Assembly (NCBI GenBank): GCA_020061125.1
Contig: JAGUYV010000105.1
Location: 1-6,267, forward strand
Reading direction: 5' to 3'
Origin: a bacterium
GTDB lineage: Bacteria > UBP15 > UBA6099 > DSWB01
DNA: 6,267 nt
Shown: positions 1-5,670 of the stretch, one piece after another
Layout: every line of letters starts with the position of its first letter
How positions within the stretch are numbered: the stretch's first letter is position 1
The notes under the pieces: model-generated
What the model was told of the DNA's origin: nothing
What the model saw: only the letters and a program-made list of their open reading frames with translations
The model's database searches: none
Made by a program: the position numbers and the translations under genes

Positions 1-864
1 GCGCGCGCCGGGCAGGGGCGCCGGCTCGGCGAGCGCGTCTGTGGGTAGCGCCTCCGCATCCCAGAAATCCGCGGATTCGCCGGGGTGCAGAATGCGCAGC
101 AGGGACAGACGCAGAGCTTCGGCGCTGCTGCGCGCATTGATGAGCGCCTGTTCGCGCAGGGCGGTTTCGGCGCGCGCGGCCACGAGGTCAATTTCCGCCA
201 GGCTGCCCAGTTCCACGCGAAGCGCGGCCTCCTCATACTGGTCCCTCGCGAGTTGAAGGGACGCCTCGTAAATTTCGATTTTGCGCAAGGCCAGTGCATA
301 GTTCCAATATGTGTCAATCAGGTTTCCCGCCAGGGTTTCCGCGTAGGCCTGCAGCTCGAAGACCGAAGCCTGGGAGTCGAGTTCGCTCTGGCGCAGAGAA
401 GCCAGATTCACCTCGCGGCCTCCGCCCTGGAGCAGCGGCTTGGTCACGGACAGGCCCAGGCCCGTGGAATAGCGGCTGTCCGCGGCCGGGGCGTCCGTGT
501 TTGCGGCGGACAGGGCCAGAGACACGGTTTCGCCGGACGCGAGGCGTTTTGAGAGATCCACGCCCGCCCTGTTGGAGCGGCTTTTGGCGCCGGTTTGCGC
601 TTCGGTGTTTGAACCGGACAGCGTGGCCGAGACGCCCGTGTCGAAGGCCGCGTCCTGGCGCGTTTCATTGAGTGACGCGCTTTCGGGGTTCAGCCGCTGC
701 ACTTGCAGCGCCGGGTTGTTTTCGAGCATGAGCAGAACCGCCTCGTTGAGGGACAGCTTGAGGGTCTGGGGCGCGGCGGCGGCCATGGTTGCCGGAACAA
801 GACACGCGGCGAACAGCAACGCGCGGAAGAGGTTCGCCGGATTCCAGGTCAGTGGCGTTTTCAT
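1..864 (-). CDS. TolC-family outer-membrane efflux protein (3' part missing)
   Basis: This gene encodes the outer-membrane channel of the exporter, and the first 288 residues are visible before the window ends. Residues 1-31 form a Sec signal peptide with a hydrophobic run around 12-28 and a likely cleavage at the Ala run before Pro32. A helix of the OEP type follows (SLNEAVLLMLENNPALQ, 38-54). Residues 75-145 are strand-like and end in PLLQGGG at 143-149, a typical TolC-family turn. Long amphipathic helices follow, including ELGSLAEIDLVAARAE at 218-233, the usual coiled-coil start of these proteins. Family members usually have 430-500 residues, so roughly a third is missing. The start at 864 is preceded by AAGGTG and lies 29 nt after the permease stop, so it is probably the last or a late operon gene. 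Cys21 lies in the signal but with a poor lipobox (FAAC), so a lipid anchor is not favoured. Recognition of the family is firm; no substrate is implied. Confidence 0.9.
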   Translation of the reverse strand, partial: MKTPLTWNPANLFRALLFAACLVPATMAAAAPQTLKLSLNEAVLLMLENNPALQVQRLNPESASLNETRQDAAFDTGVSATLSGSNTEAQTGAKSRSNRAGVDLSKRLASGETVSLALSAANTDAPAADSRYSTGLGLSVTKPLLQGGGREVNLASLRQSELDSQASVFELQAYAETLAGNLIDTYWNYALALRKIEIYEASLQLARDQYEEAALRVELGSLAEIDLVAARAETALREQALINARSSAEALRLSLLRILHPGESADFWDAEALPTDALAEPAPLPGAR

Positions 865-893
865 GAGGATCACCTTGTTTTCTGTGCGGTGCA

Positions 894-2105
894 TTATTCG
901 TAATACAGGCACTCGATGGGGTTGAGCTGTGCGGCGCGCCAGGCGGGATAGAAGCCGAAAAAGATGCCGACGCCGGCCGAGAACCCGATGGCGAGCAGCA
1001 CGCTCTGCGCCGTGACCACGGGGTTGAAATCCTGCGAGAAGCGGCCGATGGCCACGGCTGCGCCGATGCCCGCGGCCATGCCGATGAGTCCGCCCAGGGC
1101 GCTCATGATCAGGGATTCGAGGAGAAACTGCTGAAGGATGTCGCGGTCACGCGCGCCGATGGCCTTGCGAATGCCTATCTCGCGCGTGCGCTCGGTCACG
1201 GTCACCAGCATGATATTCATGATGCCGATGCCGCCCACGAGCAGGGAAATGGCCGCGATGCCGCCCAGCAGATAAGTGAATGTTTTGGTCACGCCGGACA
1301 TGGTCTCGATGATGTCCGCCTGGTTGCGCACCTCGAAGTCGTCCTCATCCGGATTCGTGATTTTGTGGCGTTTGCGCAACTCGGCCGCGATGGCCTCCTC
1401 GACCTGTTTCATCTTATTGCTGTCTTTGGCCTGAATCTCGATTCCCGAGAGATAATCCATGCCGAACAGGATGTTCATGGCGGTGGTGTAGGGCACGATG
1501 GCCATGTCGTCCGCGCTGAAGAACGAGTCGCCGCCCTTGGCCTTGAGCATGCCGATGAACTCGAAATTCAAGCCGTTGATCTTCACGGGTTTGCCGATGT
1601 CGAAGCGCGTGAGTTCGAGGGTGCCCGCGGCTTCGGATCCGAGCACCACGACGCGCGCGTTGCGGTCCGCCTCGGAGTCCGTGAAGAAACGGCCGTGCTC
1701 CACCTGGAAATTGTTGCTGGACAGATATGTTACCGCGGTGCCGACTACGCGTGAGCGGGAGTTGTTGTTCTGGTACTTGAGCTGTGCGCTGCCCTGGGCC
1801 ATGGGCGCCACTGTGTTGACGCCTTGGATGGCGAGCAGGGCCTCGGCGTCTTCAACGGTGAGGGTTTGCACATCGTCCCCGCGCACGCCGCCGGGGGTGT
1901 GGCCCTGGCCGGGGCGCACGCTCAACCGGTTTGTGCCCATGGTCTGGATGCGGGAGAGCACATCCTGCTGGGTTCCCGTGCCGATGGCGAGCATGGCGAT
2001 GACCGCGCCCACGCCGATGATGATTCCGAGCATGGCCAGGAACGAGCGCAGCTTGTTGCTCCACAGGCTCTTGAGCGCGGATTTTACGATAGTGACAAAA
2101 AGCAT
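894..2105 (-). CDS. MacB-type ABC transporter permease (split form)
   Basis: This is the inner-membrane permease subunit of a type VII (MacB/LolCE/FtsX-like) ABC transporter, 403 residues long. These proteins use ATP in the cytoplasm to drive movement of a periplasmic domain that pushes substrate into an adaptor and TolC conduit. The layout fits the family: a membrane segment at about 21-43 (LAMLGIIIGVGAVIAML), a large MacB_PCD-like periplasmic domain at about 44-275, then an FtsX domain with segments near 277-299, 330-354 and 368-390. The conserved cytoplasmic motif ERTREIGIRKAIGA lies at 305-318. Unlike E. coli MacB (about 650 residues) it has no fused ATPase; that is the preceding gene, only 5 nt upstream. 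The ribosome-binding AAGGA overlaps the ATPase stop codon, which suggests translational coupling. The C-terminus LYYE differs slightly from the frequent ALRYE ending. Assignment to the family is secure. The substrate (macrolide, peptide, lipid, siderophore or other) cannot be told. Confidence 0.95.
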   Translation of the reverse strand: MLFVTIVKSALKSLWSNKLRSFLAMLGIIIGVGAVIAMLAIGTGTQQDVLSRIQTMGTNRLSVRPGQGHTPGGVRGDDVQTLTVEDAEALLAIQGVNTVAPMAQGSAQLKYQNNNSRSRVVGTAVTYLSSNNFQVEHGRFFTDSEADRNARVVVLGSEAAGTLELTRFDIGKPVKINGLNFEFIGMLKAKGGDSFFSADDMAIVPYTTAMNILFGMDYLSGIEIQAKDSNKMKQVEEAIAAELRKRHKITNPDEDDFEVRNQADIIETMSGVTKTFTYLLGGIAAISLLVGGIGIMNIMLVTVTERTREIGIRKAIGARDRDILQQFLLESLIMSALGGLIGMAAGIGAAVAIGRFSQDFNPVVTAQSVLLAIGFSAGVGIFFGFYPAWRAAQLNPIECLYYE

Positions 2106-2110
2106 TCTGA

Positions 2111-2785
2111 TTATCCTTTTGCGGGGCCGTCAATGACGCGGCCGTCCTTCATGCGGATGGCGCGCGCGCAGCGCGCGGCCACGCCTGCGTCGTGGGTCAC
2201 GATGATGATGGTGCGGCCCTGGCGGTTAAGATCCTCGAACAGGGCCAAAATTTCCTCGCCTGTGCGGCTGTCTAGATTTCCTGTCGGCTCGTCGGCGAGC
2301 AGGATGTCGGGATCGTTCACCAGGGCGCGGGCCACGGCCACGCGCTGGCGCTGGCCGCCGGAGAGTTGCGCAGGCTCGTGATGCATACGGTCCGCAAGGC
2401 CCACGGCCTCGAGCGCGGCGGCCGCGGCGCGGTGCGTGTCTTTCCTTCCCGCGTATTGCAGGGGCAGCTCCACATTCTCCCGCGCGCTGATGCGCGGCAG
2501 CAGGTTGAACGACTGAAACACGAACCCGATGCGCTTGTTCCGGACATGCGCGAGTTGGTCCCTGTTCATCCGGGACACATCTTCTCCGGCGAGCACATAG
2601 GAGCCGGAGTCCGGCTGGTCCAGGCAGCCCAGTAGGTTCATAAGTGTGGTTTTCCCGCTGCCGGACGCGCCGATCACGCTCACCATCTCGCCCTGGCTGA
2701 TGGTGATGCTCACGCCGTCCAGGGCGCGCACCTGGGCCGCGCCCATCTGGTACACTTTGACCAGGTCCCGCGTTTGAATAAGCAT
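2111..2785 (-). CDS. ABC transporter ATP-binding protein, MacB/LolD class
   Basis: This is the cytoplasmic ATPase that powers the neighbouring permease, 224 residues long and typical of the LolD/MacB/FtsE class. All catalytic elements are present: Walker A GASGSGKT at 39-46, the Q-loop glutamine at 91 (VFQSFNLLPR), the signature LSGGQ at 141-145, Walker B ILLADEP with Glu166, the D-loop GNLD at 169-172, and the switch histidine at 198 (VTHD). The sequence FQSFNLLPRISARENVELPL is characteristic of the class that pairs with FtsX-type permeases. The start at 2785 follows GGGAG, 16 nt after the adaptor stop, and the stop lies 5 nt before the permease start. As the chain ends soon after the nucleotide-binding fold, nothing is fused to it. 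It should therefore act as a homodimer with two copies of the permease, as in YknYZ-like systems; this is inferred from the family. Confidence 0.96.
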   Translation of the reverse strand: MLIQTRDLVKVYQMGAAQVRALDGVSITISQGEMVSVIGASGSGKTTLMNLLGCLDQPDSGSYVLAGEDVSRMNRDQLAHVRNKRIGFVFQSFNLLPRISARENVELPLQYAGRKDTHRAAAAALEAVGLADRMHHEPAQLSGGQRQRVAVARALVNDPDILLADEPTGNLDSRTGEEILALFEDLNRQGRTIIIVTHDAGVAARCARAIRMKDGRVIDGPAKG

Positions 2786-2801: not shown

Positions 2802-4163
2802 TCAGCGGCGCATTCCGCGCATTCCCCGGCGCGAGCCGGGTCCGGCGCCGGGCATCATGCCCGGAGGCGGGCCGTTGCGTCCTTCCTGGCTCCACCGGCT
2901 TGCGGCCGCGCCCTGTTTCACTTTTATGTTCTCTCCCTCTTGCAAACCGCTCGTGATTTCAATCATGAGTCCTGACTCGATGCCTGTTTCTACGGGCCGC
3001 TCTTCGGTCTTGCCTCCAGCGGCTGCGATTGTCACCACCCGGCGGCCCTGTTTGTCGCGCGTGATCGCAGACGCCGGGATCAGGATCGCATCCCGCTTCA
3101 TCTGCACAATGATTTCCGCGTCAGCGGTCATGCCGGGCATGAGCAGTTCCTTGTTTAGTGAAAGCACCTCGATTTTGACTTCGAAAGTGACCACATTGGA
3201 TGTGTTCACGCCTTTGCGCGCAACGCGCTCGACCTCGCCCATGAAGCGCTCGTCCGGAAATGCGTCGGCGGTGATGCGCACGCGCTGGCCCGGCGCCACG
3301 CCCGCGATGTCGCTCTCGTCCACGGAAGCGGTCACATAAATGCGCGACAGGTCCGAAATCACCATGAGCGCGGTTCCGCCGCCCACATTGCTGATGCCCG
3401 AGGAAATGATCTGTCCGGTCTGCACATTGCGCGCGGTGATGACCCCGTCCATGGGCGCGTAGATTTTGGTGTCGTCCAGGCCCTGTTGCGCAAGCTCCAG
3501 GTTCATGGCCGCGGATTCGAGGTTGGCGCCGGACTGCACGATGTCCTGCCGCTGCACCTCGAGAGCGGCCCTGGACGCGTCAAGTTCGTCAAAGCGCAGT
3601 TTCGCCTGTTCATGGGCGGCCCAGGCCGTGGCCGCGGCGGTTTGCGCCGCGTCCAGTTCCTCGCGGCTGGCCAGCTTCTTGTCATGAAGCTGGCGCGTAC
3701 GCTCGAGTTTGGCGTCCGCTTCGTCCGCTTTGATTCGCGCGGATTTCAGGTTCACTTCCGCGGTCTTATAGGAAGTCTTCAAATTCTTTTCCGCAACAGA
3801 GAGATTGCGCTGGGATTTGGTGAGAGCCGCGCGTGACGCATTCAGATTCGCCTGGGTCTTGTTCACATTGCGCTGTTCGTCCTCTGGGTCGAGTTCCGCC
3901 ACCAGTTCGCCTTTTTTCACGGTGTCGCTGACATCAAAGGGCAGGGAGATGATCTCGCCGCTGGCTTTGCTTTTAATCTCCACATCCAGATTGGACACGA
4001 CCACGCCGCTGGCTTCCACGGTCTTTGCGATGGGGCCTCGCGCGACCTCGACGATTTTGGTTTCGGCTTTTGGCGCCTGTTTTTTCTTGGAGCGCGCTCT
4101 CCAGGCCCAGACGCCGCCCGCGGCAAGCGCCAGGATCAGGATGATGACTATTGCTTTCTTCAT
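2802..4163 (-). CDS. MacA/HlyD-family periplasmic adaptor (membrane fusion protein)
   Basis: This adaptor of 453 residues links the inner-membrane ABC transporter to the TolC-type channel. Residues 3-22 form one hydrophobic N-terminal anchor, followed by a basic RARSKKK stretch; there is no lipobox. The lipoyl domain is split as usual, with halves near 62-93 (SGEIISLPFDVSDTVKKGEL) and 230-255 (IYAPMDGVITARNVQTG). Between them lies a long alpha-helical hairpin at about 95-230. Its tip contains R155, L159 and S166, matching the RxxxLxxxxxxS tip motif known to engage TolC in AcrA and MacA. A beta-barrel (about 265-355) and a membrane-proximal domain (about 356-417) follow. The last 22 residues are an odd tail rich in Gly, Pro, Met and Arg (432-453). 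The protein is longer than E. coli MacA (about 370 residues), mostly in the hairpin and tail. The start is supported by GGAGG 5 nt upstream. Confidence 0.94.
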   Translation of the reverse strand: MKKAIVIILILALAAGGVWAWRARSKKKQAPKAETKIVEVARGPIAKTVEASGVVVSNLDVEIKSKASGEIISLPFDVSDTVKKGELVAELDPEDEQRNVNKTQANLNASRAALTKSQRNLSVAEKNLKTSYKTAEVNLKSARIKADEADAKLERTRQLHDKKLASREELDAAQTAAATAWAAHEQAKLRFDELDASRAALEVQRQDIVQSGANLESAAMNLELAQQGLDDTKIYAPMDGVITARNVQTGQIISSGISNVGGGTALMVISDLSRIYVTASVDESDIAGVAPGQRVRITADAFPDERFMGEVERVARKGVNTSNVVTFEVKIEVLSLNKELLMPGMTADAEIIVQMKRDAILIPASAITRDKQGRRVVTIAAAGGKTEERPVETGIESGLMIEITSGLQEGENIKVKQGAAASRWSQEGRNGPPPGMMPGAGPGSRRGMRGMRR

Positions 4164-4220: not shown

Positions 4221-4697
4221 TCAGCGCATCTTGATGAGATCCGACACTTGTTTATCGAGCTTTTTCAGGGTTTGGGCGCAGCCTGTGTTGTCCTTGATGC
4301 AGGAATCCAGCGCGGCGTCGGTGAGATCGCGCACTTCGGGCCTCGTGCCGATGCACAGATCGGGATTGGAGTCGCAGTGCGTTTTTATGTCGCGGCGCAT
4401 GTCGCGAATGGTTTTGCAGTGCTGACTGTCAATGCCGCAGAGCTGGCGTATTTTATCGCGCAGCGCGTCTCTGTCGCCGCGCGGGCCGCGGCCGTCGCGC
4501 GCTCCGCGTCCGCTGCGACCGTCCCTTGGCCGCATGCCCTGGCCCGGCCCGGCCGGAGATCCCTGTTGCGTGTTCTGCGGCTGCGGCGCGGCGGCCGGTT
4601 TCTGCGGAGCTGCCGTTTTGCTGTTGCACGATGCGGCGGCCAGGCCCAGTGCCGCGCACAGCATGATTGCCATCAGATATGCGGGGTGTTTTTTCAT
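4221..4697 (-). CDS. Small secreted protein or lipoprotein with three C-x6-C pairs
   Basis: I do not recognise the family of this 158-residue protein. It begins with a clear export signal (MKKHPAYLMAIMLCAALGLA) ending in AASC, a degenerate lipobox with Cys24 as possible lipidation site; signal peptidase I cleavage is the alternative. A flexible Ala/Pro/Gln stretch (27-50) leads to a highly basic Gly/Arg-rich linker with RDGR-like units (55-76). The remainder (77-158) is charged and looks helical. It carries six cysteines at 87/94, 108/115 and 133/140, giving three pairs with identical C-x6-C spacing that sit where helices would turn. Disulfide-stapled helical turns in the periplasm are a reasonable inference. 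The gene has a strong AAGGAG ribosome-binding site 5 nt before the start. It precedes the adaptor by 57 nt on the same strand, so it is probably the first operon gene and an accessory, sensor or substrate-related component; this role is a guess from position. Confidence 0.8.
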   Translation of the reverse strand: MKKHPAYLMAIMLCAALGLAAASCNSKTAAPQKPAAAPQPQNTQQGSPAGPGQGMRPRDGRSGRGARDGRGPRGDRDALRDKIRQLCGIDSQHCKTIRDMRRDIKTHCDSNPDLCIGTRPEVRDLTDAALDSCIKDNTGCAQTLKKLDKQVSDLIKMR

Positions 4698-4755
4698 CCA
4701 GTCTCCTTTGTCCGCGGAACGCCGGACTCCTTGTGTTCATTTGTCCCTTTGATGC

Positions 4756-4953: not shown

Positions 4954-5670
4954 ATGGCAAAGCTCACACAGGAAGAACAGGACATCATGGCGTGGGGCGC
5001 GGAGGCGTTCAAGGCGCCCTGGCTGGATCTGTGCCAGGTGTTTCAAAAACTCAATGCGGGCGAGGATCTGACCCGCGAACAGGCGCTCATTGATCCGTTC
5101 TTTGTGCCGTTCGACATAGATGCGCGCATCATTTTCCGCGCCATGAAGGCCGGCGGCAAAAAAGCTATCCTGGGCGACAACGGGTCCATGCTCACCATCA
5201 TCACCAACACGCGCGGCGACAAAATCATCTGGGCCGCGTGCGAACTCGAAGAGGACGGCGCGTACACCGAGTTCTACCCGCTCCAGGACAAACTCGGCAA
5301 AACATGGGACAAGAAGCTCGCGGAACTCCTTTTTGACAACGACATGGAAGCCGGGTTCGAATACGCCGCGGACTGGCTCAAGAAGCAGCAGGGCATGGAG
5401 CACATAGACCTGGGCATTCTGAAAGTCGCCAATGTGCAGTTCTTCGGCGCGTTCAAGCGCGCGTACGAGGAAGCCGGAGACGGGCGCAAGCTCCTGCTCA
5501 TGGGCGTGAAAATGGCGGACGCCGTGCGCGAGATTATGGACCAGGGCTGGATTCGCTTCTGCCCGGAGATCAATCTCAAGAAATTGCTCGAGCTGGCGGC
5601 CCCGGCCCTGTCCGCGCTCGACCCCATGAACAAGGCCGTTCAGAAAATGCTCGGCGGCCTGCCTGTGTGA
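4954..5670 (+). CDS. Hypothetical cytoplasmic protein, 238 aa, family not recognised
   Basis: I do not recognise this protein and assign no function. It has 238 residues, no signal peptide and no membrane segment, and mixed charge, so it is probably soluble and cytoplasmic. Residues 1-45 look helical (QEEQDIMAWGAEAFKAPWL). Residues 55-115 look alpha/beta, with strands around TIITNTRGDKIIWAACEL (81-98). The rest is mostly helical, with aromatic-rich segments such as GFEYAADWLKKQQG (134-147) and VQFFGAFKRAYEEAG (161-175). Cysteines occur singly at 27, 96 and 203, so no metal-binding cluster is evident. The start is chosen for the strong GGAGGTG 7 nt upstream (4940-4946) and the promoter-like sequence at 4868-4896. 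A long frame on the opposite strand (5742-4783) is rejected as an antisense shadow. The gene is divergent from the efflux operon and may share control with it, but no functional link is shown. Confidence 0.82.
   Translation: MAKLTQEEQDIMAWGAEAFKAPWLDLCQVFQKLNAGEDLTREQALIDPFFVPFDIDARIIFRAMKAGGKKAILGDNGSMLTIITNTRGDKIIWAACELEEDGAYTEFYPLQDKLGKTWDKKLAELLFDNDMEAGFEYAADWLKKQQGMEHIDLGILKVANVQFFGAFKRAYEEAGDGRKLLLMGVKMADAVREIMDQGWIRFCPEINLKKLLELAAPALSALDPMNKAVQKMLGGLPV

Follow-up and report, generated by a model that had tools for sequence, protein, structure and literature searches.

Twin-CX9C (CHCH) proteins and CP12 are disulfide-stapled helical hairpins, and in CP12 the cysteine hairpins contain an NP motif. 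In the Helicobacter Hcp family, disulfides tether consecutive Sel1-like repeats (PMC3851747). YbjP, a small lipoprotein, binds TolC in the MacAB-TolC pump of E. coli (PMC13082787). The locus analyzed here brings a cysteine-paired, predicted helical protein and a pump of the MacAB type together in a bacterium of the little-known phylum UBP15. The window, that is, the whole stretch of DNA under analysis, is an entire contig of 6,267 bases from a genome assembly of 513 contigs that is 79% complete. The first gene of its probable exporter operon (hereafter the leader) encodes what is, on balance, probably a lipid-anchored, disulfide-stapled helical-repeat domain that acts as an envelope scaffold or binder, with a lineage-specific link to the exporter.

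The leader gene (4221..4697, minus strand, as are all of its parts given below) encodes a 158 residue exported, lipoprotein-like protein with C-x6-C pairs. It is a real gene, having an open reading frame, a ribosome-binding site (AAAGGAG, 4703..4709) just ahead of the ATG, a GC content by codon position of 0.63/0.53/0.75 that resembles that of its downstream operon partners, and a plausible lipobox at the end of a signal peptide. The signal peptide (residues 1-24, 4626..4697; identified by inspection) ends in the lipobox-like A21-A22-S23-C24, which by eye fits a permissive lipobox with Ala at position -3, where Leu is the usual residue; the protein is probably lipidated at Cys24. The signal peptide is followed by a linker (residues 25-71, 4485..4625) that is P/Q/G-rich and then R/G/D-rich and basic, and is considered disordered from its low pLDDT and composition. 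The remainder (residues 72-158, 4224..4484) is a cysteine-paired domain with four helices in single-sequence AlphaFold models.

Downstream of the leader, and on the same strand, are the genes for an HlyD/MacA-like periplasmic adaptor of 453 residues that begins 57 bp after the leader (2802..4163; PF13437 6.6e-19, RND_mfp 5e-55), a MacB/LolD-like ABC ATPase (2111..2785; PF00005 6.4e-35), a MacB-type permease (894..2105; PF12704 1.1e-44, FtsX 5.5e-22) and a TolC-like outer-membrane factor (1..912; PF02321 3.4e-17). The original prediction had placed a complete exporter behind the leader, but completeness cannot be shown here because the contig end cuts the gene for the outer-membrane factor. The gene arrangement suggests that the leader is probably co-transcribed with the exporter in this genome. 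On the opposite strand (4954-5670, plus), a divergent gene encodes a 238 residue protein that matches nothing in Pfam, no NCBIfam model above its cut-off and no PHROGs family significantly.

Cysteines occur at residues 14, 24, 87, 94, 108, 115, 133 and 140 of the leader. Those in the domain form three C-x6-C pairs: C87/C94 (4416..4439, loop GIDSQH) at the turn between helices 1 and 2; C108/C115 (4353..4376, loop DSNPDL) at the turn between helices 2 and 3, with NP beginning the next helix; and C133/C140 (4278..4301, loop IKDNTG) at the turn between helices 3 and 4. The cysteine gaps are 7-14-7-18-7, giving unit lengths of 21 and 25 residues. If six cysteines are distributed randomly over the final 82 residues, 0.16% of trials yield three consecutive pairs of equal spacing. 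In the AlphaFold model of the full leader, built from the single sequence, the helices span residues 72-89, 91-110, 112-135 and 140-157, with a pLDDT of about 80-91 in the domain; the remaining four of the five models from this first job have mean pLDDT values of 46-54. The domain modeled alone gives nearly the same helices (mean pLDDT 72.6), and in both models every one of the three turns is flanked by a cysteine pair. The pTM values of the two runs, 0.49 and 0.56, indicate moderate confidence for single-sequence input. Because the gaps of 14 and 18 residues correspond to about 3.9 and 5.0 helical turns, both cysteines of one helix would lie on the same side.

The original prediction had thus listed the pairs and loops exactly, and its description of a lipoprotein-like protein with pairs between predicted helices agrees with the export signal and the modeled turns. 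It named no family with this pattern beside MacAB-type genes, and none was found here. Sequence searches of Pfam, NCBIfam, PHROGs and the PDB gave no significant match; a Foldseek search gave no significant PDB match; the VIA-align rows are generic helical bundles; and no named periplasmic C-x6-C family was found in the literature. In particular, there is no LTXXQ or Metal_resist profile match in Pfam or NCBIfam that would place the leader among the Spy/CpxP or heavy-metal sensor proteins.

Proteins with the same pattern do occur elsewhere in UBP15. Among the seven genomes of this phylum that were compared, two others, designated G001 and G005, encode a protein with C-x6-C units, and all three proteins carry an N-terminal export signal by sequence inspection. 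The G001 protein is 323 residues long, and its mature part has nine tandem units. The first three of these can be aligned with the leader domain over 80 residues without gaps, the cysteine gaps being 7-14-7-18-7 in both. Identity over this alignment is 12/80, half of it contributed by the six cysteines. The BLOSUM62 score of 64 was reached by none of 5,000 full shuffles and, when the cysteines were held fixed, by only 6 of 5,000, which indicates that a weak similarity extends to other residues than the cysteines. It is also possible that the two proteins converged on the cysteine pattern. The G005 protein (241 residues) is a weaker match (E 0.001), with two adjacent units and a third near the carboxy terminus. 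We define here a UBP15 C-x6-C helical-repeat set, to which the leader belongs by its export signal and its repeated C-x6-C pairs with preserved inter-pair gaps. A repeat profile run against 386 genomes found cysteine-paired matches in UBP15 only, together with two further weak matches that lack the cysteine pairs. No relative was found when the leader domain was scanned against genome contigs, when viral sequences were searched with the G001 protein, in plasmids, or in 40 genomes of the phylum of G018. In Pfam, the G001 protein matches CP12 at E 2.8, which is not significant.

The surroundings of these relatives have features of their own. A BNR sialidase-like gene adjoins the C-x6-C gene in both G001 (L046, 10064-12185) and G005 (L138, 995-4174; PF13088). 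The UBP15 genomes with orthologs of this sialidase-like gene are precisely the three that encode C-x6-C proteins. In the leader's genome (G000), the ortholog has no C-x6-C neighbor, and linkage to the sialidase-like gene was rejected there. Beside the G001 C-x6-C gene, on the opposite strand (L046, 4560-9895), are genes for an MMPL-family permease, a LolA-like outer-membrane lipoprotein-sorting protein and a 484 residue exported protein with no Pfam match, a region that constitutes another envelope transport cluster.

The following mechanism would account for these features. The leader would be exported by the Sec pathway and anchored, probably by lipid at Cys24, with a flexible basic linker carrying the domain, which consists of four short helices. 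Every C-x6-C pair would form a single disulfide fastening the last part of a helix to the first part of its successor, so that the stapled helices build a rigid stack that could fold without a large hydrophobic core. The leader would be a member of a small, UBP15-only set in which the number of repeats differs from protein to protein. Its most likely role, in the periplasm or at the outer membrane, would be that of a stable scaffold or a module for binding, and in this genome it may assist the MacAB-TolC-like exporter. VKOR is an oxidative-folding enzyme, and its presence in all seven UBP15 genomes makes oxidative folding plausible; DsbA (PF01323) had no match in the leader's genome, which is 79% complete. 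Each UBP15 genome has a single VKOR match except G003, where there are two, separated by about 1 kb (G003:C76, L143 and L148). A broader proposal, which we hold tentatively, is that these proteins form an undescribed, UBP15-restricted secreted family of one-helix repeats of 21-25 residues with C-x6-C disulfide staples, recruited in a single lineage as an accessory of a MacAB-like exporter.

The original prediction had suggested a dedicated accessory, and the leader could in principle bind the outer-membrane factor or the adaptor and stabilize or steer the pump, in the way that YbjP binds TolC. Its place as the first gene of a probable operon, with 57 bp between it and the adaptor gene, makes a YbjP-like TolC-binding role possible, and the MacAB-TolC-YbjP complex provides a precedent for a lipoprotein that binds TolC (PMC13082787). 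The distribution of the leader, however, argues against a dedicated part. Four UBP15 genomes have the same exporter, with adaptors 54-55% identical to that of the window and no C-x6-C gene ahead of it, although these four belong to one genus and thus represent few independent cases. The C-x6-C genes of G001 (95% complete) and G005 (80% complete) both sit away from any MacAB-like exporter, and neither genome has an adaptor match at 1e-20. A survey upstream of macA-like genes, as the original prediction had proposed, extended this to about 40 related exporters (from Sumerlaeota, Hydrogenedentota, Coatesbacteria and others), which are preceded by TolC-like, regulatory or unrelated genes and never by a C-x6-C protein of the leader's kind. 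The association is not conserved: the link between leader and exporter is limited to this genome, and the leader is not a general exporter part. A dedicated accessory is therefore unlikely.

The related exporter loci also vary in other respects. By eye, an RNA polymerase sigma factor-like gene precedes the exporter in two Hydrogenedentota loci (L059 and L082), which suggests a different mode of control, and genes for a response regulator and a kinase-like protein precede two related exporters in Deltaproteobacteria/Deferrisomatales (L079 and L097). Within UBP15, the adaptors of the sister genus (L043, 4091-5794) are about 115 residues longer than that of the window, with a low-complexity insertion before the carboxy-terminal domain.

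A redox- or metal-responsive periplasmic sensor, in which opening of the pairs by reduction, or their binding of a thiophilic metal, alters the fold and the activity of the exporter, had also been suggested. The regularity of the cysteine pairs in a gene that leads an efflux-type operon, and the analogy to the NP-containing cysteine hairpins of CP12, are in keeping with such a function. Inspection of the leader, however, gave no positive evidence for it: there is no CxxC motif and no cluster of His, Met or aromatic residues that would hint at a metal site, and the cysteines lie at turns, as expected of stabilizing staples. In addition, there is no signaling partner on the contig, and in the relatives the gene is not linked to an efflux operon of this type. 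We consider a sensor quite improbable. Slightly less probable again is a coiled-coil dimer of long helices joined by interchain disulfides. The gaps of 7 and 14 would fit repetition of one heptad position, and the Lys/Glu-rich composition of the G001 relative is like that of long helices, but in both AlphaFold models the helix is interrupted at every pair. NP is moreover a typical helix start, and its occurrence within the C-x6-C loop, in CDSNPDLC of the leader and in most G001 units, favors a helix start there. Least likely of all is a cargo or unrelated passenger that shares the exporter promoter by chance, as occurrence at the exporter locus in one genome only would allow, since the 57 bp spacing, the common strand, a ribosome-binding site of its own and codon-position GC like that of its neighbors point to a settled operon.

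If the disulfides of the stapled helical-repeat domain are as proposed, the leader and its relatives represent a compact helical repeat of variable unit number that follows a simple rule: a C-x6-C pair combined with about four or five turns of helix. Such a repeat would help in understanding the envelope proteins of uncultured phyla and is a possible template for design. The locus also illustrates that leading an exporter operon is not enough to make a gene an exporter part.

Several points of comparison place the leader among known systems. The twin-CX9C (CHCH) proteins and CP12 differ from it in cysteine spacing and compartment, and the leader has no Pfam match. YbjP is, as the leader probably is, a small lipoprotein found with a MacAB-TolC-type pump, but YbjP (DUF3828) has an alpha/beta fold, whereas the leader has no DUF3828 match in Pfam and is all-helical in the model. 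The G001 protein shares secretion and, in its first three units, the cysteine framework; it differs in having nine units, a Lys/Glu-rich composition, an SPase I-like signal instead of a lipobox and a BNR sialidase-like neighbor. The leader is not a member of the Sel1-like or Hcp proteins: it has no Sel1 match in Pfam, and its units of 21 and 25 residues contain one helix and a C-x6-C pair, whereas the Sel1 repeats of Helicobacter HcpB and HcpC have 36-38 residues and two helices each. As proteins in which disulfides tether consecutive helical repeats, however, the Hcp family appears to be the nearest working analog of the leader.
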